A DNA stretch of 48,100 nt, taken from NCBI GenBank assembly GCA_012511955.1, contig JAAZFC010000096.1:1-48100 (forward strand), in the 5' to 3' direction. The notes beneath the pieces were generated by a model. It saw only the letters and a program-made list of their open reading frames with translations. It was not told the DNA's origin and did not search any database. Positions 13,505-30,984 of this stretch are shown piece by piece (position 1 is the stretch's first letter; the number at the start of each line of letters is the position of its first letter). Origin of the DNA: Fibrobacter sp. (GTDB taxonomy: Bacteria > Fibrobacterota > Fibrobacteria > Fibrobacterales > Fibrobacteraceae). The translations under genes were made by a program, and so were the position numbers.

Positions 13505-14848
13505 TCAACTCTTTATTTTGCGATAGAGTGTGGCTTCGCCAATACCTAATATTTCCGCAGCTTGGCGGCGATTGCCTTCGGTGTAGCGCAAAGCATTTTC
13601 GATGGCAATTTGCTCAATTTCACGCATGGTTAATAAAGGCAAATTCTTAGTAGAAAATATTTCGCTATGATAAGGTGACGCTTGGGCAATATCGCTGGGT
13701 AAAAGTTCCATACCGAGCTCTTGCTGCTCTTCTGCTGCTAAAGCCATGGCTCGATGCACAGTATTTTCTAGTTGGCGTACATTGCCCGGCCAAGCGTACA
13801 TAACAAGCGTTCTTAGCACTTCGTCAGAAAACTCTTTTACTCCATAATCTTCGTTGTATTTATTTAAAAAATGAGATATCAAAAGCTCTATGTCCCCTGT
13901 TCTTTCTCGCAAGGGAGGGATATCTAGCTTAATTATGCTCAAACGGTAGTATAAATCTTCACGAAAACGCCCAGCTTTAACTTCTGCGAGCAAATCTCTG
14001 TTGGTAGCGGCGACTATACGTGCATTGATGTTTTTATACAGAGTGGAACCTAAAGCCCGAACTTGATATTCCTGCAAAACTCGCAAAAGCTTAGCTTGTA
14101 AATCCAAAGGCAATTCGCCTATTTCGTCCATAAATACAGTTCCGCCCCGCGCGGCAATCAGCAGACCCTCTCGCCGTTGGTCAGCCCCAGTAAAAGCCCC
14201 TTTTTCATGCCCAAATAATTCGCTTTCAATGGTATTTGCATGCACCGCAGCACAATCTACCACCACAAAAGGTTCCTCTTTGCGTTCACTAAGTTCGTGC
14301 AAAGATTTGGCCACAAGTTCTTTACCAGTACCAGATTCCCCGTAAATTAAAATAGTAGATTTACTATTAGCTAATCTTTCCACCGACACCATGACTTTTT
14401 GCATGGCTGGAGAATTTCCCAATAAACGAGTGAAACGACCTTGTTTAACTTTTTGCAATAATTCAGCGTTTTCGCGTTTTAAAATTTGAGTTTCTTCGAT
14501 ACTGCGAATACGCCGTAACAGTAAATTGGACTCTATGGGTTTTTCAATATAATCCGTAGCCCCTAATTTCATAGCTTCTACCACTCGAGAAATATCGGTA
14601 TTGGCACTGCATACAATCACAGGAGTCTTCAAACCTAATTTGGCATAATGCTCTAAAAACTCAATACCATCCATCTCAGGCATCATAATATCTAAAAGTA
14701 TTAAGTCATAATGTATGCCTTTGAGTTTTTCTAAAGCTTCCCTACCATTACCAGCCTCAAATATTTGCGAAAATTTTTGATGTAAAATACGAGCCAAGGC
14801 CTTGCGGTTGCTTGGTTCGTCATCTACAATAAGTATAGAAGAAAACAT
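13505..14848 (-). CDS. NtrC-family sigma-54 response regulator
   Basis: Two-component activator of sigma-54 promoters, 447 residues in three domains. The receiver (1-115) has phosphoacceptor D53 (LLDIMMPEMDG) and K103. The AAA+ domain (about 140-375) has Walker A GESGTGKE (170-177), the sigma-54 contact loop GAFTGA (217-222) and Walker B FMDEIGELP. The C-terminus holds a Fis-type helix-turn-helix (NRRQAAEILGIGEATLYRKI). All catalytic motifs are intact. It begins 3 nt after the stop of the 1350-residue secreted protein, so it looks co-transcribed with two exported proteins. No sensor kinase is near. It could drive the sigma-54 promoter of flgB, but that is inference. Confidence 0.93.
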   Translation of the reverse strand: MFSSILIVDDEPSNRKALARILHQKFSQIFEAGNGREALEKLKGIHYDLILLDIMMPEMDGIEFLEHYAKLGLKTPVIVCSANTDISRVVEAMKLGATDYIEKPIESNLLLRRIRSIEETQILKRENAELLQKVKQGRFTRLLGNSPAMQKVMVSVERLANSKSTILIYGESGTGKELVAKSLHELSERKEEPFVVVDCAAVHANTIESELFGHEKGAFTGADQRREGLLIAARGGTVFMDEIGELPLDLQAKLLRVLQEYQVRALGSTLYKNINARIVAATNRDLLAEVKAGRFREDLYYRLSIIKLDIPPLRERTGDIELLISHFLNKYNEDYGVKEFSDEVLRTLVMYAWPGNVRQLENTVHRAMALAAEEQQELGMELLPSDIAQASPYHSEIFSTKNLPLLTMREIEQIAIENALRYTEGNRRQAAEILGIGEATLYRKIKS

Positions 14849-14851
14849 ATA

Positions 14852-17800
14852 TTAGTTCTTTTTACGGCGTACTCCAACTTTTTCTGTACGCTCTTCTTTT
14901 ATGGTAGCACCTTCATAGCGAATAATCAGGTTAAAGTTAGTTACATATACCCCTGTTCCTACAAACCTTCCTGTACGATCTTTAAAGTTCCAATTAACAA
15001 ACATCTTTTTGGTGGTATTTAAGCAGTTTCCACCAAAAGCTGGATGTGCACAGCTAAAGACCATAACCGTATCCGAAACATATTGACCTTGATTATCAAA
15101 GAAATATGTTGAAACAGTAATTGAAACATCTTCTGGATCTATTTCTTCGGGATCCACTCCAGATTGATGCACCAACTGAGGCATAAACCTTTGTCCAAGT
15201 TCTATAAGTTGACCCACCTTACCTTGTTCGCGTAAATCTCTGCTACGCATGGAGCCAGGTACTGAATTAATGCTTACGGTACCCAATAGAGCTAAGCTAT
15301 CCATACTCTTGTATGTCAAATAACCCATATTAGAAGATTGCACCAAGTGATTTAAGCCACCTTGCACCAATACTGGTTTAGTATCGCGATGGGGCGTATT
15401 ATCAAAATAATCCACCACTTGCCCACCGACTTCTCCATCACCGCGGAATAGGAGGAAATCTCCAGGAATAACTGGATCTACTTCTCCAGCCATTAAGATC
15501 AATGAAGCTGTTTTTCCATCATCGCTCCACAATATTTCTAGAGGTCGCAAAATCAGCGTGTCTTCTCCATGCACATACTTGAAAATATCTGTGCGAGTAA
15601 TCTTATTGTAATCCACAGGTTCACTAATATTTACCACCAAGGTATCGGCATCTTCAGAATACCGCAAATGCGCCCTGACTATAGCTGGAGGCATCATATC
15701 TTGCATTTCAAAAGTGCGGTGCTCTACAAACTTCGTGCCAGAAATTTCATAACTCATATATAACTCGGCGACGGGTAAATCTGGTTTTAAAGAAGTTAAA
15801 CCAGACTGCATATCCACATTGGAACGCACTCTCCAAGTAACTAGAGTTGGATCTTTAGGGTCTATTCGCAACTCCTCTGGAGTAGGCATAAGTTGCACCA
15901 TGCGATTGCGATAACTGTACCATGGAATACTAAAACTCATCATCGCCAACTGTTCCTCCGTGACGGGTTCTTCAAAACGCACTACTATACTATCCATAAC
16001 CCCATCGAGGTTGGAATCATAGTAAGCACCTCCCCAAGAGACAATACTGGGAAGACGATCCACCACTGTTATGGGAACCTTTCGATCATACTCCTCATCT
16101 ACAATAAAAGGCATATTTATAAAAGTCGCTAACTCATGCAATTGCACAAAATTGTCTTCTTTAGTCCAATCAATACCACTGCTTTCTATTAAAATTAAGT
16201 TGCGCCCAGGTTGTCTTACCACTTTCACTGTTATGTCTTTACCATTAACCCTAATCAGTGAGTTTTTAAGTTCTAGGTCTTCGCGAGCTATATCAAAAGT
16301 GTATTCTATAAACAAGCTGTCCATACCATCTTTGCTACGAATAACAGTGGCATTAGAAATCACCTTAGTATTTATTTCTTCCAAAGGAAGAACCCTATCA
16401 TAAGTGTGAGATTTTTCATCGGAGAAGAATATTTTCACTTGATCAGAGGGCTTTACTTCATGATTATCCATACCTAATTCTTTAGCGTTTATGGTAATTT
16501 TAGTGCTGTCAGCCGATAAACTTATGCCTTTTTTAGGCACAGTTACCGTTTTACCACCAAAAGTTATTTGTACAGAATCAATTTTTATACTTGGATTTAA
16601 AGGTCTATCTAAGAATATATCAATGGCATCCTTTTTGCCATCGCCATTGGAGTCCTTAAGTATGCTAAGTTCAGGTTCAGGCAAGGGGTCAAAGAAATCA
16701 ATACCATTGTATATTAAAGTTTTGCCCAGAGGAGAGGTGAATTTAATATATCCACCCAAAGCGATTTCATCTGATGTAATCCAAATACGGTCAGAACTGC
16801 CATCTAAAGGAAGAGTAATACTAGGTTCAAAGTGGCCAGGCTGATTGGGGTCAAGCACTTGAATGCCTTGAGATCCGCTCACAACTACTTTATCTACATC
16901 TTCAAAATAATTTTTTAAGCGTTCTATATCTAAATCTATGGAGATAATTCCGCCTAAAGATATGGAGTCACGCACACCCATGGACCCTGGCTCAAATCCG
17001 TCAATGGGATCCCCTGGGGTATTAGTTTTCACATAGATTTTGCCATTCACTATAATAGTATCTTCTGGATTAAAGGGCATTCCAGGTTGCACGGGATAAA
17101 TTTGTTGTCCACCGGTTACGGTAGAATCCGCTACTTCTCGCTTGTCTTGGCTAGGATAGTCATCGGCGCCAGTATTGTCTGGAACTTCATTACCTATGCC
17201 AGTAAAATCCCATGTTGAATCAGCCCAGTCAGGGATGAACCCGCCGGAACCTTCTCCGGAAGAGCCACTGCTGGGATCATCTATGGAGCCACCAGAACCA
17301 TCACTGCCTGAACCACTGCTGGGATCATCTACGGAGCCGCCAGAACCATCACTGCCGGAACCACTGCTGGGATCATCTATGGAGCCACCAGAACCATCAC
17401 TGCCGGAACCACTGCTGGGATCATCTATGGAGCCACCAGAACCATCACTGCCGGAACCACTGCTGGGATCATCTGGGGAACCGCCAGAACCATCACTGCC
17501 GGAATCACTGCTGGGATCATCTGGGGAACCGCCAGAGCCATCACTGCCGGAATCACTGGAGCCATCTGGAGAACCGCCAGAACCATCACTTCCAGAACCG
17601 CTAGAGCCATCTGAGCCATCGCCGGTGGAACCGCTGGAGCCAGAACCATCGCCGGTGGAACCACTGGAGCCAGAGCCATCGCCGGTGGAACCACTGGAGC
17701 CAGAACCATCGCCGGTGGAACCGCTGGAGCCACCGCCAGTTGAACTCCCATTACTAGAAGAGCTAAGTGCAGGGCTGCTCCAATATTGGTTACCCCCAGA

Positions 17801-18904
17801 ACTTCCCCCTCCCCATGCGCTGGAATATCCTGAAGCGGAAGAAAGAACTACTGTGGTTTTAGGTTCTGAACCGGCACCAGATAAAGGGGCCACATCATCT
17901 AATTGTGGATCTAAATACTGTATATGAATCAAGATATTATCATCAATTCGTTTTTGTGGATTAGAAGTATAATCCACAAAAACTAAATAACCATTATTTT
18001 CTGCCACATACAAATGCCCTTTGCCATCGGTGGTGCCTTGGTCAAAACGGAAACCATATTTAGTGGAATCGTATATGAAGTTAAAATGATTAGCGTAGTC
18101 AGCAAATTCCTTATCAAACTCCAACTCTGCTATCTTAACTCTTGAAATGGGATCTATTTGCACAATACGCTTACCACCAAAAGTTATGATTGTTTTGGAA
18201 TAGGTATCGTAAGTCATACCGTGAGCGCCTTCCATAACTCCGCTAATGCTCCGAGTTGCAACCATAGTATTCAAGTCTATCACACCAAAGTAGCCATATC
18301 CCCTATCATTAGAGGAAGTGTAAAAAGCTTGACCATTTTCATCCCAAGCCAAGGTGCAAATTAGGGAATCCTTCCCTATTATTTTGCGATAAGTTCCTTC
18401 TCCTAATCTACCAGGTTGGTTTTTGTCTAAGGGAAAACTAAAAAGACGACCAGGAATACCCGCCGCCCATAAAGTTTCGTTGTCGGGATCCATCATCAAA
18501 TGAAAAACTCCGTATCTCTTAGTCCTTTGCCTTCCACCTTCATCTGTGGCTTGGGCTACTATTTGCCCACTACTTTGATTGACTTTATACACATATTCAT
18601 TTTGCCCTGCAATAAGAATATCGCCATCAGGGTGGTGCACTATACCGTCAGCTCCAGGGGTGCTTGCAATGGTGGTTTTATTTTCTAGACGAAAGTACCC
18701 CATGCCATTGTAACGGAATGTTACCTTCTTTACCCGATCATCGCCTTCGTAACGAGTATAATATAAATCACCCGACACCGAATCACTGGGATAAATCTGC
18801 CCTTTTTGCTTAATATAAACCCCATTAGCTGGGTTCCACACATCTTGAGCCATAAGAGCCGTAATGGCTAATAAAATAAACAAGATTGTTTTTTTGCTCT
18901 GCAT
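14852..18904 (-). CDS. Giant exported multidomain protein with propeller-like N-terminus, repeat linker and shared C-terminal module
   Basis: 1350 residues, function unknown. It has a signal peptide (cleavage near LMAQ, residue 19). Residues 20-350 carry propeller-like blades (HHPDGDILIAGQNEYVYKV, FHLMMDPDNETLWAAG, GHLYVAENNGYLVFVD). A Ser/Gly/Asp/Pro linker (about 385-560) follows, built of four 10-residue and six 16-residue repeats. Calcium-loop-like modules DSNGDGKKDAIDIFL (near 750) and DSNLDGVMDSIVVRF (near 965) come next, then an NISEPVD module. The final domain has CLNTTKKMFVNWNF, GRFVGTGVYV and a basic tail ending RRKKN. The last three elements recur in the neighbouring 927-residue protein and the GH9 enzyme. 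It starts 12 nt after its neighbour with a strong GCGGAGG site. Likely surface-located; its ligand is unknown. Confidence 0.8.
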   Translation of the reverse strand: MQSKKTILFILLAITALMAQDVWNPANGVYIKQKGQIYPSDSVSGDLYYTRYEGDDRVKKVTFRYNGMGYFRLENKTTIASTPGADGIVHHPDGDILIAGQNEYVYKVNQSSGQIVAQATDEGGRQRTKRYGVFHLMMDPDNETLWAAGIPGRLFSFPLDKNQPGRLGEGTYRKIIGKDSLICTLAWDENGQAFYTSSNDRGYGYFGVIDLNTMVATRSISGVMEGAHGMTYDTYSKTIITFGGKRIVQIDPISRVKIAELEFDKEFADYANHFNFIYDSTKYGFRFDQGTTDGKGHLYVAENNGYLVFVDYTSNPQKRIDDNILIHIQYLDPQLDDVAPLSGAGSEPKTTVVLSSASGYSSAWGGGSSGGNQYWSSPALSSSSNGSSTGGGSSGSTGDGSGSSGSTGDGSGSSGSTGDGSGSSGSTGDGSDGSSGSGSDGSGGSPDGSSDSGSDGSGGSPDDPSSDSGSDGSGGSPDDPSSGSGSDGSGGSIDDPSSGSGSDGSGGSIDDPSSGSGSDGSGGSVDDPSSGSGSDGSGGSIDDPSSGSSGEGSGGFIPDWADSTWDFTGIGNEVPDNTGADDYPSQDKREVADSTVTGGQQIYPVQPGMPFNPEDTIIVNGKIYVKTNTPGDPIDGFEPGSMGVRDSISLGGIISIDLDIERLKNYFEDVDKVVVSGSQGIQVLDPNQPGHFEPSITLPLDGSSDRIWITSDEIALGGYIKFTSPLGKTLIYNGIDFFDPLPEPELSILKDSNGDGKKDAIDIFLDRPLNPSIKIDSVQITFGGKTVTVPKKGISLSADSTKITINAKELGMDNHEVKPSDQVKIFFSDEKSHTYDRVLPLEEINTKVISNATVIRSKDGMDSLFIEYTFDIAREDLELKNSLIRVNGKDITVKVVRQPGRNLILIESSGIDWTKEDNFVQLHELATFINMPFIVDEEYDRKVPITVVDRLPSIVSWGGAYYDSNLDGVMDSIVVRFEEPVTEEQLAMMSFSIPWYSYRNRMVQLMPTPEELRIDPKDPTLVTWRVRSNVDMQSGLTSLKPDLPVAELYMSYEISGTKFVEHRTFEMQDMMPPAIVRAHLRYSEDADTLVVNISEPVDYNKITRTDIFKYVHGEDTLILRPLEILWSDDGKTASLILMAGEVDPVIPGDFLLFRGDGEVGGQVVDYFDNTPHRDTKPVLVQGGLNHLVQSSNMGYLTYKSMDSLALLGTVSINSVPGSMRSRDLREQGKVGQLIELGQRFMPQLVHQSGVDPEEIDPEDVSITVSTYFFDNQGQYVSDTVMVFSCAHPAFGGNCLNTTKKMFVNWNFKDRTGRFVGTGVYVTNFNLIIRYEGATIKEERTEKVGVRRKKN
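17273..17560. repeat. Six tandem 48-bp repeats coding a Ser/Gly/Asp linker
   Basis: The sequence GGGATCATCT recurs at 17273, 17321, 17369, 17417, 17465 and 17513, exactly 48 bp apart. Each unit encodes 16 residues of the type GSDGSGGS(I/V/P)DDPSS on the minus strand, inside the 1350-residue protein. Units are nearly identical in DNA, differing at the I/V/P codon, so copy number may vary between strains. Confidence 0.9.
17616..17735. repeat. Four tandem 30-bp repeats in the same linker
   Basis: CCATCGCCGGTGG begins at 17616, 17646, 17676 and 17706, 30 bp apart. Each unit encodes ten residues (GSTGDGSGSS type) on the minus strand. It lies next to the 48-bp array but has a different unit, so the linker grew by at least two duplication events. 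Confidence 0.88.
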
Positions 18905-18916
18905 TTTTGCCTCCGC

Positions 18917-21700
18917 CTAATTTCTTAATAAAGTGGGACGACCACTACCATTGCCTGCTTTTACCCCCCACGCGTAGGTTTTAACCACACGATGGGTCTT
19001 TTTCGCACCACTTACCTTTACAGTCAATTTAGCCGCATATACTCCGTATCCCACTTTGCGACCATTTTCAGCTAACATATTCCAAGATAAATAAACCCGC
19101 CGTCTGTTTTCAAAACAGTTACCTGCTTGATCGCCTGTAACTGAAAATTCAGGATCTGTGCAGTTTATCTCCCCTTTGGAACTGGCTACAAAACCACCTA
19201 AACTTGTGAAAATATCTAATTGCCAACTTAGCTTTATCTTTTCGTAATCCAAAGCTAACTCTTCGCTAATACTATCTAAATCTCCCACGGTAGCCATACC
19301 AACATCTAACAAAACCCCTAAGGAACTCCCTCGCAAACCATCGTCTAACTTCACATTATCTGGTAAAAAATCCACGCTAATTGCTTCGGGGTTGCCATCT
19401 TTATCCCGAGGGATATCGTCATTGCCAATGGCCATACGATTAACACCCACTATAAAAGCATCATCACTTAAAATGCGTGCTCCTCCTTGCAACAACACCG
19501 CATTTCCATCAGATTCCATAGCATTGCCTTGGGTATCTTGTAAACCATGGGACAAGGATTTAACAAATAACGAATCTCCAGGATTAGGTCTATCCCATAA
19601 ACTTGTACCTTGGGCTAACTGAACGCTGAGTACTTTCCCACTATCACTCCAAATTGCTTTGGCCAAGCCCAAATCTCCAGAGCCACTCCCCGTTTGTAAA
19701 AACTCTAAAAAGTCCAAAGTTTTAAGAGCATTTGTGTCCACCTCTTCAGAAAAGTATAACACCAGTGAATCTCCTTTGTTTTGGTTCTTAGAATTAGGCC
19801 AAATCATAGCTGTAGTTAACACCGGGGCCATGCGATCAGTCATTTTTACCGTGGAAGTATCGTAAAGAACATCTTCTAAAATTTCTTGTTTATTAATTAA
19901 AAAACCATAACCATAACTGGGATTATCTATGGAGGTTAAATTATGCTGAATACCATAATCGTCGGGATCAAACTTCCAGGAAATTTGTGTAGGGTTTTTA
20001 CTATCCCATTGTAAATCTTTAGGATCTGGCTTAAGCTCTATGATTTTGTCGGCGGTATCTTTCCAGAAAAAGCGGACATCGAGGGAGTCTAACTGCCATT
20101 CTTGCAGTGCTTCAGTAAACTCGAGAGTTATACTATCTAAACGCCCATCGAGGTTAGAATCAAAAAAGCCATTGCCATCTTCGGTTAAAGGCGGAATATT
20201 ACCTGCTTCGCGAATGACCACCTTGCGATTGTTGCTGGCGGGCAAGTTTTGATCGTGGGTTTTAAGTCCACCATTTGCGGAGATATTAATGGAATCTCCC
20301 GGATTAACTTTTTCCGCATCGCGCTCATCTACAATAAAACGCCAAACTCGCCCTTCTACAGGTTTACCACTTACACGAACAGAATTGCCATTTACTAAAA
20401 AAGCTTTACCTTGACTGAAGGAATCATCTAATTCTTTATTGAAGAGTGCCACTAAAGTATCAGGATCACCATCATTACCGCGAATTATTGTCACCCCATT
20501 GAGCACTGGCCCTATTTTATCTTTTATAGGTGTTTGGGTTGGGAACCATTGCCCAGACTCGCTTTGGACTTCCACCGCAAAATCTCCCTGGGCAGGTGGG
20601 TTTTTCACAGTTCGTTGCTCTACATCCACCTCTATATAATTATTGCCCTTGGCAAAACCTATGGAGGCACCACCTGGGTTTACGGAACTTAGTTTTTCGC
20701 CATGGGGCCAACTCATTTGTGGATCGCGAGGACTATGTTCTAAACCTTCGTTAAACCATGCTTGAATATGATCGCCAATGCCATCGCCATCTAAATCGTA
20801 TATATGGGCTGAATCCAACAAAGGATAATCGCCGTAGTTAATATTGATTTCCCCAGGGAAAGGCACGGTATCGCGAGGGCGCTCACTCGGCTTTAATAGT
20901 TGAGAATACATTGCAAAATGAAAGTCAATTTTAGCTCCATTTACTGGTGCGGATGCTCCCATATAGAACTGCGCTTTACCTTCAGTTATTTTGATGCTAT
21001 CGATTTTATCAGATTTATTGCCGTTATTATCAACAATAAAAAACTCCAAATTAGTGTTGTCGCCCACATCGGGAACTAGCCAATTGGATCCCCCCGTGCT
21101 GGTAAAAGTATTATCTGGTTTTCCATTGGGGGTAGTAGCCTGTACATTGATTAACTTATATTCCCCTGTTTTAAAATTAATATCCGATAATTTGTCAATT
21201 TTTTCCCCCTTTTCATCGGAGAAAACTAAGCGAGGATAGTAAAAATAAAGTTCTGCAAAAGTATTAACTTGCTCGTCTTCATCTTTGATACTCACTTTTA
21301 CCATTTCTTCATCTAAGTTGGAAAGCATAAAACAACGCCAACCATCTTTACAGGCAAGAAGCCCATTACCGTCTGGTATAGCCGAAGTGTCTGGCTCCTC
21401 TGGTGATGAAGGAGTTTTAAACTCATCACCACTGGCGAAGAACTTAGTATCATCGGATAAATGCCAAACTTTTGTAACGCTGCTGTCTTCGTTAAACAAT
21501 AAAGCAAATTCCTGGTCGTATAAAGGAACTAAGTTATCACCTTCAGAAAGCACAGGATCTTTAATAGTAACTTCTACTTGATAGCGCCCCCCCACACGCA
21601 CAGTATCACGGAGCAACTGCGAGAAACTGTTGCCCCATAAAAGCAACAATAAAAACAGATATATTCGCAATCTTGTCGAATCTAACCGAAACCCTAACAT
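18917..21700 (-). CDS. Large exported protein with calcium-loop-like modules and shared C-terminal domain
   Basis: 927 residues, function unknown. It has a long signal peptide (hydrophobic run LRIYLFLLLLLWGNSFSQ). The body is acidic and beta-rich. Two D-x-D/N-x-D-G loops stand near residues 298 (DLDGDGIGDHIQAWF) and 511 (DSNLDGRLDSITLEF). A module then begins DRMAPVLTTAMIW and carries YFSEEVD. The last domain has GNCFENRRRVYLSWNM, NGRKVGYGVYAAKL and a basic tail (KKTHRVVKTYAWGVK, then GRPTLLRN). This layout repeats that of the next gene and of the GH9 protein. It is first in an operon with the 1350-residue protein (12 nt on) and the NtrC-type regulator. A GAGAGG ribosome site precedes the ATG at 21700. 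Confidence 0.8.
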   Translation of the reverse strand: MLGFRLDSTRLRIYLFLLLLLWGNSFSQLLRDTVRVGGRYQVEVTIKDPVLSEGDNLVPLYDQEFALLFNEDSSVTKVWHLSDDTKFFASGDEFKTPSSPEEPDTSAIPDGNGLLACKDGWRCFMLSNLDEEMVKVSIKDEDEQVNTFAELYFYYPRLVFSDEKGEKIDKLSDINFKTGEYKLINVQATTPNGKPDNTFTSTGGSNWLVPDVGDNTNLEFFIVDNNGNKSDKIDSIKITEGKAQFYMGASAPVNGAKIDFHFAMYSQLLKPSERPRDTVPFPGEININYGDYPLLDSAHIYDLDGDGIGDHIQAWFNEGLEHSPRDPQMSWPHGEKLSSVNPGGASIGFAKGNNYIEVDVEQRTVKNPPAQGDFAVEVQSESGQWFPTQTPIKDKIGPVLNGVTIIRGNDGDPDTLVALFNKELDDSFSQGKAFLVNGNSVRVSGKPVEGRVWRFIVDERDAEKVNPGDSINISANGGLKTHDQNLPASNNRKVVIREAGNIPPLTEDGNGFFDSNLDGRLDSITLEFTEALQEWQLDSLDVRFFWKDTADKIIELKPDPKDLQWDSKNPTQISWKFDPDDYGIQHNLTSIDNPSYGYGFLINKQEILEDVLYDTSTVKMTDRMAPVLTTAMIWPNSKNQNKGDSLVLYFSEEVDTNALKTLDFLEFLQTGSGSGDLGLAKAIWSDSGKVLSVQLAQGTSLWDRPNPGDSLFVKSLSHGLQDTQGNAMESDGNAVLLQGGARILSDDAFIVGVNRMAIGNDDIPRDKDGNPEAISVDFLPDNVKLDDGLRGSSLGVLLDVGMATVGDLDSISEELALDYEKIKLSWQLDIFTSLGGFVASSKGEINCTDPEFSVTGDQAGNCFENRRRVYLSWNMLAENGRKVGYGVYAAKLTVKVSGAKKTHRVVKTYAWGVKAGNGSGRPTLLRN

Positions 21701-21827
21701 TTACGCCTCTCAAAGAGTATATCTATCTTTATCTTGAGTCAATAAATAGATAAACCCTATTAAAATTAAAGTAAATCAATTTCCTACAAAATCAACCACA
21801 ATCAAAAATAATTTATTTGCAAGTATA

Positions 21828-22955
21828 TTATTCCATTATAGACGCTAAACTTGCAATTATATCGTCTAGATACACCCAACCGTCTCTCATTATTTGCACA
21901 AAACCATCATTTTGAGACATCCATCCTAAATTTACATATTTTTTAAACACTGAATGAGAACTGCTTATTCCCAATTTTTGCCATTCTTGAATATTAATCC
22001 CCGCATTTTGCCGCAATCCCAACCATAGTTTTTCCAAATTTGCGGCTTCTTCATTAACTTCATCGAGTTCCATTAAGCCCTCTGGACAGGATTGATCCAC
22101 CCATTTAAGCCAATGCACAAAGCTTCGAGGATTGCCATAACGCACCCCATTTATAAAAGAATGCGCCCCTGGCCCCAGCCCCAAATACTCTCCCCGCTGC
22201 CAGTAGTGAAGATTATGCAAAGACTCATGACCGGGGCGAGCAAAGTTTGAAATTTCATAGCGATTTAAACCCTCTTTTTCTAAGAGCTCCACCCCACCAT
22301 GGTAAAACTCGCTGTATGAAGCTTGGTTATGGCTAAAAATGCCTTTACGCATTTGTTGGTCTAGCAAAGTGTGGGCTTCTATTTGCAGCCCATAAAAAGA
22401 GATGTGTGGCAAACCTAGAGCCACCGCTTTGCGTAAATCGTCGTGAAACTGAGCTGAACTTTGCTCTGGTAAATCAAAAATAAAGTCAGCATTTACTTTA
22501 TAATTTGAGTTTAATAAAAGTTCAATAGCACGCATTGCTTGGGTAGAGTTATGATTGCGTTGGATTTTTTGTAAAATTTGGTCATTAAAACTTTGCACCC
22601 CAAGACTAAAACGATTTACGCCCCAATCACTCATTAATTGAACCCAGGTCTTAGTGGTGGATTCAGGATTAGACTCCACAGAAAACTCTCCGCTACTGCA
22701 GTTCAGTTGGTGAATTTGATTTAAGCTTTCCAAAAGTTTAAGCCATAAATTGTGTTCCAAAGCCGAAGGAGTGCCGCCCCCAAAATATATGCTATACCAT
22801 TGTTTTAGATGCAAAGGGGGTATGCGCAAACTGGCTTCTCGTAGAATTGCGCTTACAAATTGTTCCTGTATCCTCGACGGGGCTTTAAGCACGGGAAAAT
22901 CACAATAACTGCATATACGAGCGCAAAAAGGGATGTGTACATATAGAGAAAGCAT
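21828..22955 (-). CDS. hemW: HemW-type radical SAM protein (coproporphyrinogen oxidase-like)
   Basis: 375 residues. The radical SAM cluster is bound by C11, C15 and C18 (CARICSYCDF), as in HemW and HemN, and YFGGGTPSAL is the SAM-binding glycine motif. FSVESNPES, NRFSLGVQSFND, NADFIFDLPEQS and ISFYGLQIEAHT follow in the usual order, and GLGPGAHSF is the C-terminal signature. HemN needs an extra N-terminal region which is absent here, so HemW (haem chaperone) is the better name than coproporphyrinogen dehydrogenase. It is transcribed away from the cyclase gene. A 127-nt AT-rich gap follows before the exported-protein operon and holds that operon's promoter region. Confidence 0.9.
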   Translation of the reverse strand: MLSLYVHIPFCARICSYCDFPVLKAPSRIQEQFVSAILREASLRIPPLHLKQWYSIYFGGGTPSALEHNLWLKLLESLNQIHQLNCSSGEFSVESNPESTTKTWVQLMSDWGVNRFSLGVQSFNDQILQKIQRNHNSTQAMRAIELLLNSNYKVNADFIFDLPEQSSAQFHDDLRKAVALGLPHISFYGLQIEAHTLLDQQMRKGIFSHNQASYSEFYHGGVELLEKEGLNRYEISNFARPGHESLHNLHYWQRGEYLGLGPGAHSFINGVRYGNPRSFVHWLKWVDQSCPEGLMELDEVNEEAANLEKLWLGLRQNAGINIQEWQKLGISSSHSVFKKYVNLGWMSQNDGFVQIMRDGWVYLDDIIASLASIME

Positions 22956-23023
22956 TTATAGTAATAGAACTTTGGGAGAAAAAATTAACTTCTGTAGTTG
23001 GTTATTTTATTATAATAGAAATT

Positions 23024-24073
23024 ATGGTGTCTAAACTCAATAAAAAGCGCATTTTATTCCTTTCATTCTTTATAGTTGCATGGATGGCATTGAGTTTAGC
23101 TTTTGTATTTTTACATAATTCCCCTCAAGACGAAGTTAATAAGAAGCTTCAAATGATTCTTATCGCCCTACAATTTGGATGGTTGCTTGGAATATTTCAT
23201 GGGGTTTTTGAAGTATTATGGGGTGAAAAAGATCGCGGACACTGGCCTAATATAGCCTACTTTCTAGGTCGCATCTTATTATTTTCAGTACTCATTTTAA
23301 TTAATGGTGCAGTAGTTTTTTTGACTTGGAATCTGTATAATTTCAACAATATATGGCAAAGTGAACTTTGGAAAACAGCATTTGCTAATTTCGCATTTTT
23401 TCGCTTCTTTTTTTATGCTTTATTCTGTGGTTTTCTTATCACATTTGTCCATTCCATCCATAAAAAACTTGGCTGGCGCACTTTGATAAACAGCCTCTTA
23501 GGAATTAAGCAAAAAGCCATAGAAGAAGAACGAGTTTTTGTGTTTTTGGACTTGCGCTCAGCCACTACCTTAGCAGAAGATATTGGACACTTATATTATA
23601 GTAGTTTTTTGCGGGAATATTTTCACTTAATATCTAATTGCTGCGCAGAAAACTCTGGGGAAGTCTATCAATACGCTGGCGATGGAGTGATTCTCACTTG
23701 GCTAACACAAAAATGTCGCCGACATCCCTACCCCTTATATTTTTTAAAAGATTTAGTAGAACTTTTTGATAAACGCAAAGATTATTTCAAGGAAAAATAT
23801 CAAAACGCCCCTGTATTTAAAGCATCTGTACATTCAGGGCGAGTGATTGCCACGGAAGTTGGAAATTTTGGCAGTGCCATAGCCTACCACGGCGATATTT
23901 TAAATAGCACAGCTCGCATCCAATCTCTATGCAATTTGCTTAAAAAAGATTTTGTCGTTTCTGATACTTTTTTAAAGAAAATGCCCCACACCCATGGTTT
24001 TAAAGTCCAAGCCCACGGCAGTTTTCAAATGCGCGGCAAAGACCAGGATTTAGATGTCTATAGCTTAAATTAG
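23024..24073 (+). CDS. Membrane-anchored class III adenylate/guanylate cyclase
   Basis: 349 residues: about four membrane helices (residues 10-30, 43-64, 78-101, 122-145), a short linker, and a C-terminal class III cyclase domain from about 165. The two metal-binding Asp are D176 (VFVFLDLRSATTLAE) and D220 (YQYAGDGVILTW). The transition-state pair is N294 and R298 (GDILNSTARIQ). All needed residues are present, so it should be active as a homodimer. Whether it makes cAMP or cGMP is not settled by the motifs. The ATG follows a TATAAT (23011-23016) by 7 nt with no ribosome site, so a leaderless message is possible. Confidence 0.88.
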   Translation: MVSKLNKKRILFLSFFIVAWMALSLAFVFLHNSPQDEVNKKLQMILIALQFGWLLGIFHGVFEVLWGEKDRGHWPNIAYFLGRILLFSVLILINGAVVFLTWNLYNFNNIWQSELWKTAFANFAFFRFFFYALFCGFLITFVHSIHKKLGWRTLINSLLGIKQKAIEEERVFVFLDLRSATTLAEDIGHLYYSSFLREYFHLISNCCAENSGEVYQYAGDGVILTWLTQKCRRHPYPLYFLKDLVELFDKRKDYFKEKYQNAPVFKASVHSGRVIATEVGNFGSAIAYHGDILNSTARIQSLCNLLKKDFVVSDTFLKKMPHTHGFKVQAHGSFQMRGKDQDLDVYSLN

Positions 24074-24083
24074 TAGAATGCCA

Positions 24084-24527
24084 TTAATCTTTTAAGTTTT
24101 TGACTTGATCTAAAAACTCATCCACTTCTTTAAATTCTCTATAAACCGAGGCAAAACGCACATAAGCCACCGCATCTAATGAGCTTAAAGCATCCATCAC
24201 TAAATTGCCGATTTTTTCGTAACTAACTTCTTGAGAATCGCCGTTCATCAAGGTGTTTTCAATGTCATTTACTATTTCATCTATGGCATTGCGTGAAATA
24301 GGTCGCTTTTTACAAGCAGTCATTATACCATTCAATAGTTTTTCCCTGGCAAAAGCTTCGCGGGTTTCATCTCGCTTTACCACAGTTAAAGGGACTTTTT
24401 CCACATACTCATAGGTGGTAAAACGCCGAGAGCAGTTACTACATTCTCTGCGACGGCGTATAGCTCCACTAGTAGCTCGCGAATCGACTACGCTGTTTTT
24501 ATCGTGTTTACAAAAAGGACATAACAT
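24084..24527 (-). CDS. nrdR: Transcriptional repressor NrdR
   Basis: Represses ribonucleotide reductase genes in response to ATP/dATP. 147 residues from the ATG at 24527; an in-frame TTG two codons upstream is less likely because most NrdR proteins begin M-x-C-P. The N-terminal zinc ribbon is CPFC and CSNC (near residues 3-6 and 31-34), with the basic RRRRECSNCSRRFTTYE. The rest is an ATP-cone domain (VVKRDETREAFAREKLLNG). It begins 12 nt after the GH9 cellulase stop, so it may be read from the same message as an unrelated neighbour. No ribonucleotide reductase is in the window. Confidence 0.94.
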   Translation of the reverse strand: MLCPFCKHDKNSVVDSRATSGAIRRRRECSNCSRRFTTYEYVEKVPLTVVKRDETREAFAREKLLNGIMTACKKRPISRNAIDEIVNDIENTLMNGDSQEVSYEKIGNLVMDALSSLDAVAYVRFASVYREFKEVDEFLDQVKNLKD

Positions 24528-24539
24528 AAGCAAAATTGA

Positions 24540-27500
24540 TTAATGAACTCTAATTACTCCAAAACTACTAGTTTTTTCGGCATGGGATTTTTTAGCACTA
24601 CCCCTGCGGTAAGCCGGCACTCTTTCGGCAACGCCTTTATCATCTAAAGGCACCTTTTCGTCTTCCATGGCCATGTACGAAGTGGTGAAATTAAATCTTC
24701 CCACATAAGATCCACTCCCAACAATACGCCCCGACTTAGATTTAGGACCAGAACCGTCATGGCTAAGCCATTCAAAATTCAAGGAAAGTGTACCATCATC
24801 GCTGATATATTCTCTACCTATATCGTCTAAATTAAAGCGCAATTTAGTACCATTAACAAACTGTCCTAATTGATCGTATATGTTTAAAACTATTGATAAT
24901 TGGTAATTTACGGTGTATTTATCTCCATCGTATTGGTGATCAGTCCATGGCAGATTTATCTCAACTTTAAAAGTTGTACCTAAACAGTTATAGGCTGTAG
25001 TATCATATATTACACCTTTATTCACAAACATATTAGTACTACCTTCGGAAATATTTTGCATGGTATTTTCCCCAGGTAAATTTACTGTAATTCTAAAATA
25101 ATCATCAGGATCGGGAGCATGGGGTCCATAGCCTTGTTGCACAGCATCGGGATCTCTACCTACCACTGGTGTATGCACGCTAATTTTATAATCAACTTTA
25201 TCATCCTCTACCCCTTTAACTTGAATCCAAGGTGCATTGGGTGCAGGTAAGATATTTGCTCTATCCACTAAGCCACTTAAAACAGGCTCGGAATATAGGC
25301 GTACAAAGTCTCCGATGCGAACTGTACCAGCATTTTCTTTATCAAAGAAGAAAATAAAGAGAGAATCGTTTCCAAGGCGCATGGAAACAGCAGGAATAAT
25401 TTCAGAAACATTGCCACTGCGACGGCGCAGTAAAATCACTCCTCCGGTGGTATCTACGGGTTCACTTACAACCAAGCCCAAGGAGTCCATTCCCGAACGC
25501 ATATTAGACAATCGTGCCGCAGTTAAAACCGGACCTACGGAGTCAGAAACGCTATATTCCACTTCAAAAAAGCCTCCCGCAGGCCCCAAACGAGGTTTTA
25601 CACGACCACGACCGTTACGATGGCCATGGGTGGTACCAAAGGGGAAGATTTTTTCATCGAACTCCAATTCTAAGACCGAGAAAGTATCTGTTTGGGTTTC
25701 AAAAATTGGCATATCATTAGCGTCGAGTACAGCATCGCCATTTGCATCGAAAACTCCCACTTTATTTTCGCGAGTTTTATAATCTAAATTCCACTGACGC
25801 GCTTTGGAGGGAAGCAATGATCGTTGAATAGCGGGGTTTCCCCAACTCACCACAAAACTGTCGAGCATATCTTTATCGCGGAGCTTGCGGGCAAATTCCA
25901 TGTAAAGTACTTCGGGGTAGCCGTTGCCATCTACATCCTTCATTATAGCCACATTTACTGGTACTGGTTTAGGCACTTCTATGACCATTACTCGTCCGTC
26001 GCAACCATTGGGATCCAAAGAGTTTAAAGCATTGTCATTAACTAAAAAACTTGGATCTATTTCCGCAAAATAGCCTGAATCTATAAGACTACCATTGGTG
26101 TTGCCAGTGATGGCAAAAAGCCAACTTTGTCCATCATTTTCAGTGTTGGCTCTATCCACCACAGTAATACTAGCAGTGTTTAATTTTTCCCCTTGGCTAT
26201 TATAGACGGCCAAAGGCCAAGTACTGCGACTTTGCAAGGAAACAGGCTCATTAAAGCTGATCATTATGGTATCTTGCTCTGACTCCCTATCAATATTTTC
26301 TAAAATGCTCACCCCAATAAGCTTAGGTAAAATACCATCAGTTACTTTAACCTTAGAATCTTCGGCACCAATGCCATCTATGTGCATTTTCACAGAAACT
26401 TCACCACTAGGAGCTGCATTAGTAGTTAAGTTTGCCGAGGTGGGAATAGGGATTTGAATGGTAGCCAAATTTGTTACCGGTTTATCATTAATAAGCGTAA
26501 AGCTTATAACTCCACCGGTGAGAGGGTTATCCACGCTTATATTTATGGTGTCTAATTTGTCACCAGGTCCAAAAGCTTGACTAAAATGTAATTCAAGCAT
26601 ATCGGGAATATCATCGCAATCGCTGTCTAAAAGCTTAGCCACGGTCAAAGCAGGGGTTTTGCTTTCGGCATAAAAACTTTGTTCGCTCACATCTTCGTCA
26701 TCGTCGGGATCCACATAGCGCACGATGATAGTATCGCCAGCGAAAAAGACGATTTCGTCTTTGCCCGTAGAGCCTACGGCTTTGGGTACGCCACTGATGG
26801 GGCTAGATGAACTGAAAACACCATTATCATTGAATTTCAAATCAACTTTTAGGGTATCGCCTTTGCGAGCATTGATAACCAACACAGGCACGCTGGGAGT
26901 TTTAGCCTTGATTTTGTCGTCATCACGCACGGTGATGTTAAAGTTGATAGCGCCAGGTTCTGCAGGGCTGGTTACGGACTTGCCTGTGGCCACATCGGTG
27001 ATTATCAAAGTAGATGCGGTGAGTTCACCACGACTAAATTGCACAAAGAAGTTATGGTTGGTAAAGGCGCAACCTCCAAACTCTTGACACTCCGCACAGC
27101 TGAGATCGGGGCCTGCAAATACGGTGATATCCACCTTATTGCCTCCAATGCCCATGCGTACGGGGATATTTAGATCAAACATTTCCGTATCATAGTTGTA
27201 AATCGCTGCCTTTTGCACTTCTTCGTCGGAAAGAGGGCTTCCATTTACCCAAATTGAATTGATGCTCCCCGCTTCGGTTACATGGGCGGTTCCCTTTACA
27301 TAAATGGTTGAAGAAGCTGCGTCAAGCTCTACCCTAGCTCCGTTGGAAACATTAAAAGGCGCTTGAAAAGTAGTAGTTATTTTATAATCCGAGCGTTTGG
27401 TAATTTGCTCTTGATACGAAGGAGAGAAACCCCAGACAAATTCATCTTTGCGATATACCACAATATAGGGATTAACAGGAGCCATATCAGCATCGCCAAA

Positions 27501-30500
27501 TTCTTTATCTTCCGTGGGCATTCCCACATAATCCACGGGATCACCTTGGGCGCGACTGTGGGGCATCCAGCTCCAATCCCCCCCGGCAGCACTAAAGCGT
27601 TTTGCCGCTGGAGTTACCATGGGGTCGCACTTAATGGAACCATCGGGGTTTCTGTTACCAATACCGCCACTTAAGCGAATATCTTGGCGTAAACGGGAGG
27701 AAGATTTTATGGTGGTAGAACCTAGATTTAAGGGAATATACCAAGAATACTCTGAGGTTTGCGGGTTATAGGTGTCATCTAAGCGCTGGGGTTTTGCTCC
27801 GCGCAATAAGTCGCGAATTTCCCGGTCATTTTCACAGGGCAAATTAAAGCCAGCCTCATTATAAGCTTGGCAAATATCGCTATCAAACATAATCTGACAA
27901 TTAGACATCTGGGCTTCGGTGGCATTTACATACAGTCGTAAAGTGAGACTATCAAAAGCTCGTTCTTCGTTATTAAAGATATTAAAGTTTATAAATTGCA
28001 TGCCACCAATATCGTACTCATAGGTACGCACTTCAAAGTCATATTGGGTTACTGGAGTAGTAAATTGTAGGGGTTGACCATTATCATCTACGGCTTTGCG
28101 CACACCGTTACTTTCCACCACATAATAATAAGTGGTTTTCTCTTGTAAACCGCCAATTTTCATATAATGGAAACGAGTGGGCACACCACTTTCATCGCCA
28201 CTTTTGCTCCACCGCATATTGTCGTAAGAAGTTAATACCGTGTCCCAATAAATTTTCGATTCGTATTCGCCATTGGGGGTAAACCACATGATTTCGGCAC
28301 TATCGGCTGAGACATTACAAACCTTGACATTTTGAATATCCGCAGAAGCCGGGGGACTGGCTAGAGTGGTGAAGGTAAAGGGAGTTTGGGTGCTGTCCAC
28401 TGCGTAAATTACCCGGTGATTGCCACTTTGTTGGTTGTATGCACTCACAGTAAAGAAGTATTCAGTGCCATTTTGCAAGGGTTTTAAAATAATGGTATGG
28501 ATGGAATTAGGGGTATCGCTGCTTACGCTTTGATCTAAAACTTCGGGGGAAGTGCCAAAATTTATGGTAGAAGTACCAAAACGGTCTTGACGCACCACCA
28601 CGATGGCGGAATCAAAACCCACATATTTAATTTCTACGGTGGCACTGGGAGGGCGCATTAAATCTTCGCTTTTAGCAGCTACAATGGTGGGAGCTATAAA
28701 AGAAGCTGTGCCATCTATACAAGTTTCCGAAAGATGGTAATCTTCCCAACTCATGGAAGCTGGAACCATGGAATTAGTCCCTCCCGCAGGTATGCCTCCA
28801 TATAAAGCTCCCGTGGGAGGACGGTATTTGTAGGGAGCTCCGGGAACATTTTTGCCTTCGGGGTTAGCGGATCTATGGTGAGGGTGGGCATCGTTTTTGT
28901 CGCCCACACCCAACAGCATAGAGAGATCCCAAGGATTCATGCCTAACATGTAGTTCAGCTGATTAATGCCCAGTTGCTGCATTTCTTTGGACTTCCAGTC
29001 TTGTGCCCCCATATTGGGCAAATTAAGACCTTCTAAATCTTTAGCTATATCGGCATAGGCCATGACTTCAAAAATATTCCCCGCTTGGTAGCGATTATAA
29101 ATCCAAGTTTGGTCGGTGAACATGGTAAACCATATTGGATCGTATTTAACCTGGCTCTGCTTCCACATTATAACCCCACTGGGTAGTGTAATACTTGTGC
29201 TGGCAGATCCTAAGCTCATGTCACCAAGGTTACAAACCATGGTTAAAATCACATCTTCTATATAAGCCAAACGGCGATTATTATCTATGCCATATTGGGC
29301 GGCGCGGTCTGCTGAAGATAAAATCAACTTATAAAAGGCATAAAGCGTATAAGTGTAAGCGTTAGCCCAGGAGGTGTTTTTGCCACTTTTTAGCAAGGTT
29401 GGTTCTTTATGCGCAAACCACCCTCCCCTAAAAGCCCCTGCTCCATTTCTATCATGCATAAAATCGTGTTTATTTTGCCCTTCGCTAAGCGCAGGGTTTT
29501 CCACAGCATCGTAAAGGTACATGGTATCTTGGGTAGCATAGAGCAAAGCAATGGCGGCTAAGCCCAAATCATCATAGTATTCGTTATTACCATTATAAGC
29601 AGAGCTTGAGAAAGTGGATAAGGTGTTGTTAGCGTTATTAGAAGTTCCTAGGGCAAGTTCCTTGGCAAAAACATAGAGTTCTTTGGCTACTTTTAAGGCT
29701 TTGGCAGCAAATTCTGGGTCATAGACCTCATAATGCACGGAAAGTATGGCTAAACCAGCAGCAAACTGCGCACCAACTGTGGAACCCACTTCTCCCAAAC
29801 GCAAATCACGCTCGTGAGGGCCTCCCCGACCTGTGATGCTAGTGGGGATAAAATCTTGATTTTCGGGTCTGCCCCACCAACCGTGGTCGGCACCAAAATT
29901 ACCCACAGACAAGGGCATATTATCGATTACTCCATTGGCAAAATCATAAGCCTTTAGAGCATAATCGGCACCGTGTTTGGCTTCGCGCAAAATATCAGGG
30001 ATGCCATCGGTGTTATGTATTTCTGAATGGTTATAAGCGTAGTTATCTTCATCCCGGGTGGGGTCAGCGGCATGCATAACAGATAAAACCATAAATGCGT
30101 AGGATTGAGTAAGAGATTCTTTAAGATGGTCACCGCAGTCGTACCAACCTCCAGACATGGAGCCAGGAGTACCAGTACCGCCTCCACCTTGTCCTCCCAC
30201 TATGGGTCCACCACCATCTTGGGTGTGCGAAGGGGGATGAAACCAAGATTCACTATCACCGCTGCGGTTGATGCCATAAAATTTGAGGGTGGCATCGCGC
30301 ACCATGGAATAAATACGGTCACTGATAATAAAAGTCGCAGAAAAATCATTACCCACCTTGATGCGCATACGAGTTTCCTCAGGTAGTCCCCCTGGTAAAA
30401 AGCCTTTTTGCAAAGAGCCTTTAGGACCAAAATTTTCCACAGAATAACGAATATTCATATCTCGTTCTGCATTAACCCCAGCCACAATCTTATAATGGGA

Positions 30501-30902
30501 TTCCGTGGAAGTGCCCGTGGGTTCAAAAGTACCCGTACCCAAAACTGTGGTGCCACTGGAATCCACCACCTCGAAAGTACTGGCATTACCCACATAGTAA
30601 ATCATTTTTTCGGGATCCGAAGGCAAATATCCCGCCTGATTTACCCGAATGGGTGACATATTCAAATTAATAGCATCCAAATAAGCTTGGTTAAGAGTAT
30701 CAGGAATGGGTGCATTGGGTTCGTAAGCCGCTGGGGTGAGGTTGGTGGGTACGGAATTGCTACGCATACCAGGCACATATTGGTCGAAAATAGTGCTGTC
30801 CCAAGATAAGGGAAACACTGGCCTAATAAGTTCAAAAGGCGTGGGTTCTATTTGAGCAAACGCTGTTAGACAACTTAGCAACAAAACTATAATAAAACGC
30901 AA
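24540..30902 (-). CDS. Giant multimodular GH9 cellulase (endoglucanase)
   Basis: 2120 residues from a TTG at 30902. This start is preferred to an ATG at 30953 because GCGGAGG lies 6 nt upstream and the product then begins with a clean signal peptide ending LTAFAQ. It has a CelD-type Ig-like domain (PIRVNQAGYLPSD near 85), then a GH9 catalytic domain with GGWYDCGDH (D255, D258), GMNPWDLSMLLG, the HHRSANPEG motif near 675 and the catalytic Glu E726 (LSETCID). Two fibronectin-like modules follow, then beta-rich regions with CQECGG-type Cys, calcium-loop-like modules (near 1423 and 1651), a VVSEPVD module and a basic C-terminal domain (GRIVGSGSYV, tail RRGSAKKSHAEK). It hydrolyses beta-1,4-glucan outside the cell. 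It is far larger than most GH9 enzymes. The last modules match two other large proteins here. Confidence 0.9.
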   Translation of the reverse strand: MRFIIVLLLSCLTAFAQIEPTPFELIRPVFPLSWDSTIFDQYVPGMRSNSVPTNLTPAAYEPNAPIPDTLNQAYLDAINLNMSPIRVNQAGYLPSDPEKMIYYVGNASTFEVVDSSGTTVLGTGTFEPTGTSTESHYKIVAGVNAERDMNIRYSVENFGPKGSLQKGFLPGGLPEETRMRIKVGNDFSATFIISDRIYSMVRDATLKFYGINRSGDSESWFHPPSHTQDGGGPIVGGQGGGGTGTPGSMSGGWYDCGDHLKESLTQSYAFMVLSVMHAADPTRDEDNYAYNHSEIHNTDGIPDILREAKHGADYALKAYDFANGVIDNMPLSVGNFGADHGWWGRPENQDFIPTSITGRGGPHERDLRLGEVGSTVGAQFAAGLAILSVHYEVYDPEFAAKALKVAKELYVFAKELALGTSNNANNTLSTFSSSAYNGNNEYYDDLGLAAIALLYATQDTMYLYDAVENPALSEGQNKHDFMHDRNGAGAFRGGWFAHKEPTLLKSGKNTSWANAYTYTLYAFYKLILSSADRAAQYGIDNNRRLAYIEDVILTMVCNLGDMSLGSASTSITLPSGVIMWKQSQVKYDPIWFTMFTDQTWIYNRYQAGNIFEVMAYADIAKDLEGLNLPNMGAQDWKSKEMQQLGINQLNYMLGMNPWDLSMLLGVGDKNDAHPHHRSANPEGKNVPGAPYKYRPPTGALYGGIPAGGTNSMVPASMSWEDYHLSETCIDGTASFIAPTIVAAKSEDLMRPPSATVEIKYVGFDSAIVVVRQDRFGTSTINFGTSPEVLDQSVSSDTPNSIHTIILKPLQNGTEYFFTVSAYNQQSGNHRVIYAVDSTQTPFTFTTLASPPASADIQNVKVCNVSADSAEIMWFTPNGEYESKIYWDTVLTSYDNMRWSKSGDESGVPTRFHYMKIGGLQEKTTYYYVVESNGVRKAVDDNGQPLQFTTPVTQYDFEVRTYEYDIGGMQFINFNIFNNEERAFDSLTLRLYVNATEAQMSNCQIMFDSDICQAYNEAGFNLPCENDREIRDLLRGAKPQRLDDTYNPQTSEYSWYIPLNLGSTTIKSSSRLRQDIRLSGGIGNRNPDGSIKCDPMVTPAAKRFSAAGGDWSWMPHSRAQGDPVDYVGMPTEDKEFGDADMAPVNPYIVVYRKDEFVWGFSPSYQEQITKRSDYKITTTFQAPFNVSNGARVELDAASSTIYVKGTAHVTEAGSINSIWVNGSPLSDEEVQKAAIYNYDTEMFDLNIPVRMGIGGNKVDITVFAGPDLSCAECQEFGGCAFTNHNFFVQFSRGELTASTLIITDVATGKSVTSPAEPGAINFNITVRDDDKIKAKTPSVPVLVINARKGDTLKVDLKFNDNGVFSSSSPISGVPKAVGSTGKDEIVFFAGDTIIVRYVDPDDDEDVSEQSFYAESKTPALTVAKLLDSDCDDIPDMLELHFSQAFGPGDKLDTINISVDNPLTGGVISFTLINDKPVTNLATIQIPIPTSANLTTNAAPSGEVSVKMHIDGIGAEDSKVKVTDGILPKLIGVSILENIDRESEQDTIMISFNEPVSLQSRSTWPLAVYNSQGEKLNTASITVVDRANTENDGQSWLFAITGNTNGSLIDSGYFAEIDPSFLVNDNALNSLDPNGCDGRVMVIEVPKPVPVNVAIMKDVDGNGYPEVLYMEFARKLRDKDMLDSFVVSWGNPAIQRSLLPSKARQWNLDYKTRENKVGVFDANGDAVLDANDMPIFETQTDTFSVLELEFDEKIFPFGTTHGHRNGRGRVKPRLGPAGGFFEVEYSVSDSVGPVLTAARLSNMRSGMDSLGLVVSEPVDTTGGVILLRRRSGNVSEIIPAVSMRLGNDSLFIFFFDKENAGTVRIGDFVRLYSEPVLSGLVDRANILPAPNAPWIQVKGVEDDKVDYKISVHTPVVGRDPDAVQQGYGPHAPDPDDYFRITVNLPGENTMQNISEGSTNMFVNKGVIYDTTAYNCLGTTFKVEINLPWTDHQYDGDKYTVNYQLSIVLNIYDQLGQFVNGTKLRFNLDDIGREYISDDGTLSLNFEWLSHDGSGPKSKSGRIVGSGSYVGRFNFTTSYMAMEDEKVPLDDKGVAERVPAYRRGSAKKSHAEKTSSFGVIRVH

Positions 30903-30984
30903 GAAAACCTCCGCTGATAATACCCTTTTACCCACTACACCCATTGAAATCAATAATATAAATATTTTTGCTTTTCACAACAAC

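Follow-up and report, generated by a model that had tools for sequence, protein, structure and literature searches.

A C-terminal module shared by giant exported proteins of Fibrobacter is probably a divergent type IX secretion sorting domain

Introduction

The solved C-terminal domains (CTDs) of the type IX secretion system (T9SS), those of RgpB, PorU and PorZ, are immunoglobulin (Ig)-like beta-sandwiches. Type A tails use the shuttle PorV. Type B tails are longer (150–235 aa), have PorP/SprF as their shuttles and direct adhesins to specific sites (PMC12618676). The published CTD pattern comprises motif B with a G, motif D (GxY) and motif E, a terminal basic residue (PMC11969387). Here we describe a three-domain C-terminal module, or tail, on three giant exported proteins, p927, p1350 and a GH9 cellulase, encoded on contig JAAZFC010000096.1 of Fibrobacter sp. 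This contig of 48,100 bases is the window analysed throughout, and belongs to an assembly of 150 contigs and 2.68 Mb that is 97% complete. Its relatives, as judged by protein matches, are Fibrobacter and other Fibrobacterota.

The basic terminal domain (BTD) of Fibrobacter is a basic C-terminal domain with a pI above 9. Raut et al. (2019) proposed that the BTD, or FPm-1, is the TIGR04183 signal, and their model assigns the fibro-slime proteins, together with cellulases, to a single complex at the surface (PMC6851124). In F. succinogenes, a fibro-slime protein occurs with cellulases, OmpA and TPR proteins in a vesicle complex (cited in PMC6851124). The 2011 genome paper found the cellulases to be without a previously reported anchoring domain (PMC3079729), and no T9SS or other export signal for fibro-slime proteins is named in PMC3079729 or PMC6851124.

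Results

Three giant proteins share one C-terminal plan

The original prediction held that the three proteins follow a single C-terminal building plan and that one of them is a GH9 cellulase. Both points were borne out, the second by the Pfam match to the catalytic domain (Table 1). Two DxDxDG-type loops per protein, S-E-x-V-D and GR-x-VG-x-G-x-Y were all present and in identical order, with loop 1 of the GH9 protein degenerate. The loops were separated by 212 residues in p1350 and p927, and by 230 in GH9. At the start of each protein, a Q follows a signal-peptide-like segment.

Within the tail, domain I is Ig-like and is opened by a DxDGDG loop, by its sequence a probable calcium loop. Domain II is an Ig domain with S-E-x-V-D. 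Both are generic Ig-like repeats with weak Big_5 matches, and the I-II unit is duplicated in p927 and p1350. Domain III, of about 170 aa, carries [YF]-x-N-L-G-x-[YF]-[VI], W-[ND], GR-x-VG-x-G-x-Y and a terminal W/F-G-[VI]-x-R; most copies contain two conserved cysteines, and an extended insertion separates the B-like and D-like motifs. The DxDGDG loop preceded domain II by about 88–129 aa (mostly 101–107) in 55 of 57 module proteins, as against 0.9% of shuffled upstream segments.

The position of domain III was strict. It was C-terminal in all 79 proteins counted, with no internal copy, and 69 of 78 carriers had a hydrophobic N-terminus by a rough pattern. In a set of 48 tails, regular expressions found the B-like motif in 35, GxY in 48 and a terminal G-x-x-R/K in 42, so that the tails follow the published B-D-E pattern (PMC11969387). 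Most tails were basic (pI 8.6–10.1), with values of 8.8, 9.5 and 10.0 for GH9, p1350 and p927, respectively.

Direct comparison showed p927 and p1350 to be homologous across 638 aa (blastp, 3.5e-37). Pairwise blastp of GH9 against these two was marginal (0.009), and GH9 was linked to them through fibro-slime relatives, matching fsC at 6e-11 and fsA at 2e-8. A profile of domains II and III (A1) found GH9 at 2.3e-87, GH9 being itself a profile member. In GH9 tails the cysteines are missing and the loop ahead of the last strand is longer. A tail tree grouped the GH9 tails in a single clade (support 0.993) and did the same for the p1350-type tails (1.0), indicating that each carrier class has kept its own version of the tail.

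Domain III resembles PorU C-terminal regions

AlphaFold models of the p1350 and GH9 tails (mean pLDDT 90.4 and 76.5) showed a similar strand order. A fold search of 350,542 PDB chains returned the same best match for both, latent P. gingivalis PorU (6za2; E 1e-7 for p1350 and 2e-5 for GH9), with low whole-chain TM-scores. At the sequence level, a PDB search with the tail profile gave chance matches only. Across the 48 tails, the NCBIfam PorU model matched seven weakly (best E 0.021), and FlgD_ig (PF13860) matched one, weakly and below the Pfam cut-off.

In profile comparison by hhalign, domain III aligned with PorU/FlgD_ig tails from this genome and its relatives (P 7e-5 to 1.4e-4). The scores were 30–31, whereas none of 200 column-shuffled controls scored above 17. 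The W-N and GR-x-VG-x-G-x-Y of domain III stood opposite W-D-G and GR-x-LANGLY of the PorU/FlgD tails. Domain II gave nothing against the same tails. Type A (TIGR04183) tails reached these PorU tails at P 2.6e-6; as domain III and type A tails both do so, they belong to one superfamily. Domain III thus falls in the T9SS-CTD/FlgD-Ig superfamily and is closer there to the tails of PorU than it is to those of type A.

The likeness to the PorU C-terminal region (6za2, NF033707) lies in the best PDB fold match of the two tail models, the terminal basic residue and the FlgD-type pattern W-D-G ... GR-x-x-x-x-G-x-Y in register. Unlike PorU, where this region belongs to the sortase, the module is borne by cargo, has an extra cysteine-bearing hairpin and is fused to domains I and II. 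With the FlgD Ig-like domain it shares an Ig-type fold pattern by profile, whereas the cysteine hairpin and the GVxR ending occur only in the module. The original prediction raised the prospect that the tails might fail to align or might differ in fold; instead, one profile joined them, and the two models had the same best fold match.

Most sampled Fibrobacterota genomes match the module profile, with a defined set of carriers

According to the original prediction, many exported enzymes with the same tail would support a sorting domain. The A1 profile matched 139 of the 151 Fibrobacterota genomes sampled. Most Fibrobacter-type genomes had about 8–15 matches, this one about 8–10; in about sixteen Fibrobacter-type genomes the best matches reached only near 1e-40. 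F. succinogenes S85 and its nearest relatives likewise gave weaker best matches to A1. Outside the order, matches were mostly weaker and often to domain II only; the evidence for the complete module is therefore best in Fibrobacteraceae and a few sister families. Among the relatives are Fibrobacter intestinalis ATCC 43854, Fibrobacteria bacterium AD312 and many gut-sample Fibrobacter genomes.

Six carriers were first found in this genome. A search with p927 added three on contigs C88 and C115, all fibro-slime proteins by their PA14 domain (Pfam), with TIGR02148 at 1e-37 in the two scanned with NCBIfam. With an improved profile, a further giant GH9 (on C6) and a protein of 1073 aa (on C17) came to light. 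The carrier classes are fibro-slime (TIGR02148) proteins, the p927/p1350 pair and giant GH9 cellulases. All have the same tail, and the fibro-slime/PA14 domain is absent from the window proteins.

Among GH9 proteins of five genomes, the tail divided strictly by size: all 11 giants had it, and the smaller GH9 frames, about 29 in number, all lacked it. Complete giants measured 1931–2212 aa by open frame, one of the 11 being cut at a contig end, and their genes are often in tandem (L221, L223, L226). The window GH9 frame has 2137 aa from its earliest start (30953); a length of 2120 aa depends on start choice.

Small secreted proteins of 416–427 aa (L230:2311-3561, G004:C16:3569-4426, G001:C8:20622-21467) appear to consist of a signal peptide and domains I-II-III alone, the one at L230 having been examined at full length. 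They are possibly a structural or signalling partner. At another locus, two fibro-slime genes in tandem, fsA and fsB, are followed by a gene for a 278-aa protein (L009:11414-12250), a probable outer-membrane beta-barrel with no relatives in the other fetched loci.

Homologues of T9SS components are encoded in the genome

Homologues of SprA (882 bits), PorV (140 bits, with paralogues) and PorU (336 bits, under the cut-off of 420) were identified in this genome, along with 34 TIGR04183 tails. No match to PorP/SprF (TIGR03519) was found in it, nor any type B tail above the cut-off; only the PorU tail matched TIGR04131, below cut-off. The SprA gene (L109:2237-9085, contig C1) is split by a TGA into frames of 1757 and 519 aa. 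The TGA may come from faulty assembly or sequencing, or may truly interrupt the gene; the listed SprA matches from other genomes had no internal stop. PorV-family genes lie on contigs C11, C142, C99, C67 and C61, the C11 frame (726 aa) exceeding PorV length, and by sequence the paralogues are candidate specialised shuttles. A dedicated shuttle gene beside the carriers was considered and set aside: PorV-type genes lay near fibro-slime genes only in L062 and L074, both of one genus, too few to claim.

Architecture and neighbourhood of the p927/p1350 pair

Neither p927 nor p1350 had a significant Pfam or NCBIfam match. The N-terminal region of p1350, which gave no Pfam or PDB sequence match, looks beta-propeller-like by eye from its repeat pattern. 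It is joined to the tail by a long, repetitive Ser/Gly/Asp-rich linker (residues about 352–600, SGSDGSGGSxDDPS repeats). The N-terminus of p927 likewise found no match in a PDB sequence search.

Orthologues of p1350 were present in all 11 pair loci, adjoining p927 in each. Among these loci, the cyclase/hemW-p927-p1350 block was conserved wherever the fetched stretch was long enough; at L054 the contig ends first, and at L070 the stretch ends after hemW. The cyclase-like gene, divergent from hemW, is kept beside the pair across the family. The radical SAM gene was considered as a modifying enzyme of the pair, a role that was dropped because the gene is hemW, a housekeeping neighbour outside the tail module. 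The NtrC-type regulator adjoins p1350 only in the window and L051 (59% identical) among the 11 loci. An Rfam scan of the window gave no match.

Table 1. Features of the window that concern the tail carriers and their neighbours
Feature	Residues	Position	Strand	Evidence or remarks
NtrC-type sigma-54 response regulator		13505..14848	-	3 nt downstream of p1350
p1350 gene		14852..18904	-	signal peptide MQSKKTILFILLAITALMAQ with Q at +1, propeller-like N-terminal region, Ser/Gly linker, I-II-I-II-III tail
p1350 domain III, terminal, T9SS-CTD-like	1183-1350	14855..15358	-	GR-x-VG-x-G-x-Y at 1312; ends GVRRKKN; modelled, top PDB fold match PorU
p1350 domain II, Ig-like	1067-1182	15359..15706	-	SEPVD at 1094
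p1350 DxDxDG loop 2	963-978	15971..16018	-	motif search
p1350 DxDxDG loop 1	751	16607-16654	-	motif search
p1350 N-terminal region	21-350	17855..18844	-	conserved, orthologous across family
p927 gene		18917..21700	-	signal peptide ..LLLLLWGNSFSQ, N-terminal domain without assignment, I-II-I-II-III tail
p927 domains II+III	620-927	18920..19843	-	SEEVD at 651, GRKVGYGVY at 880
p927 DxDxDG loop 2	514-529	20114..20161	-	motif search
p927 DxDxDG loop 1	302	20750-20797	-	motif search
hemW, radical SAM heme chaperone		21828..22955	-	TIGR00539 1.7e-79; upstream of p927
Class III cyclase-like gene, divergent		23024..24073	+	PF00211 7e-5; kept beside hemW-p927-p1350 block
Giant GH9 cellulase gene		24540..30953	-	PF00759 2.5e-57, CelD_N, fn3/Pur_ac_phosph_N
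GH9 domains II+III	1802-2137	24543..25550	-	SEPVD at 1830, GRIVGSGSY at 2075, long loop preceding last strand, ends FGVIRVH
GH9 DxDxDG loop 2	1673-1688	25890..25937	-	motif search
GH9 loop 1, degenerate (DSDCDDIPD)	1443	26589-26627	-	motif search
GH9 catalytic domain	215-754	28692..30311	-	Pfam

Discussion

The data presented here suggest that the three domains of the tail together serve in export and anchoring, and that domain III is a divergent PorU/FlgD-Ig-type T9SS CTD, forming a class of its own in Fibrobacterota alongside the type A (TIGR04183) tails that the same genomes encode. We consider this reading probable. A sorting or surface-anchoring signal had been one of the original proposals, and it gains support from the strictly C-terminal position, the signal-peptide carriers, the PorU-like fold match, the T9SS motif pattern and the T9SS machinery of the genome.

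Under such a scheme, the N-terminal signal peptide would direct the precursor to export by Sec. SprA, the outer-membrane translocon, and a shuttle of the PorV family would then recognise domain III. Once at the surface, the protein would stay attached by an anchoring chemistry acting either through domain III or after its processing. Domains I and II would serve as Ig-like spacers that keep the cargo off the surface, and may also safeguard the folding of the cargo as it is exported.

Several observations weigh against this assignment. The export, cleavage and anchoring of tail carriers are predictions from sequence and fold. Ig-like folds are common. Whole-chain TM-scores to PorU were low, 0.26–0.27, a level to be expected from superposing two domains together, and the two tail models were built on one shared alignment and are hence incompletely independent. 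The profile link to PorU tails extends over about 33–36 columns with an hhalign probability of 53–78%, and the NCBIfam scan with TIGR04183 and TIGR04131 matched none of the 48 tails. The SprA frame of this genome contains one in-frame TGA. Moreover, a SprA homologue was found in all 151 genomes of the phylum, with no carrier genome lacking one, so that its co-occurrence with the tail has no discriminating power.

The strongest alternative, although it seems unlikely, is that the tail is a retained docking module of the cohesin/dockerin kind, joining fibro-slime proteins, giant GH9s and p927/p1350 at the surface, with export by another route. The DxDGDG loops of 55 of 57 tails would fit such a role, as would a carrier set of the sort expected in a cellulose-attachment complex and the F. 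succinogenes vesicle complex described above. A docking domain might, however, occur internally, and domain III never does. The best fold match was a sortase, PorU, and not a dockerin. Pfam found no dockerin in the tails or window proteins, and the loops of the latter lie 212–230 aa apart, whereas a cellulosomal dockerin packs two calcium-binding F-hand repeats in tandem into about 70 aa. The known complex also includes cellulases whose tails are of type A or BTD (PMC6851124).

Rather less probable is a tail that acts merely as an Ig/FlgD-like spacer or as a carbohydrate-binding surface with no sorting role. This would suit the generic character of domains I and II, their weak Big_5 matches and their duplication in p927 and p1350. 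It does not account well for the strict terminal position, the conserved terminal G-x-x-R or the FlgD/PorU-type profile affinity, and Pfam found no carbohydrate-binding module in the tails or window proteins. The original suggestion of a polysaccharide-binding surface complex is likewise weakened for the tail itself, because domain III was never internal in the 79 proteins.

Identity with the ordinary Fibrobacter BTD/FPm-1, a TIGR04183 type A CTD, is very improbable: the C-terminal location, the basic character, GxY, the phylum, the exported cellulolytic carriers and the superfamily link through PorU tails are common to both, but TIGR04183 matched 0 of 48 tails, hhalign against 17 TIGR04183 tails of this genome gave a match of 9 columns only (P 0.024), and the module differs in length (about 170 against 70–90 aa), in its motif block with the B-D insertion, in the two cysteines of most copies and in its cargo set (34 TIGR04183 tails against about 8–10 module matches in this genome). 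The resemblance to the basic terminal domain that was noted originally holds for basic character and is not supported as identity.

Type B CTDs (TIGR04131) offer a parallel to the export and anchoring module in that they are long signals with N-x-x-G ... W ... GxY ... terminal R and adhesin-like carriers. The tails gave no TIGR04131 match, however, and the genome has no PorP/SprF homologue. By analogy, the module would work like type B in length and cargo, yet it is no type B member.

Fibro-slime adhesins, giant GH9s and p927/p1350 share the tail, and many other exported proteins have type A tails; the tail therefore probably sends its set to one surface location. A bolder proposal, which we offer only tentatively and hold to be rather doubtful, is that Fibrobacterota use it as a third class of T9SS sorting signal, served by a dedicated shuttle from among the several PorV-family paralogues of these genomes. 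Such a signal would bring the fibro-slime adhesins, giant GH9s and p927/p1350 into one cellulose-attachment complex, apart from the type A hydrolases, as a substitute for a cellulosome that is assembled through sorting by tail.

How Fibrobacter, which has neither a cellulosome nor soluble enzymes, attaches to crystalline cellulose and degrades it has long been asked. A tail common to fibro-slime proteins, giant GH9s and a conserved surface pair provides a testable joint route of export and anchoring. Its profile annotates about 8–15 surface proteins per genome for which no export signal had been assigned. The module would thus fill the signal gap of the fibro-slime proteins, and would add a CTD class to the T9SS outside Bacteroidota.

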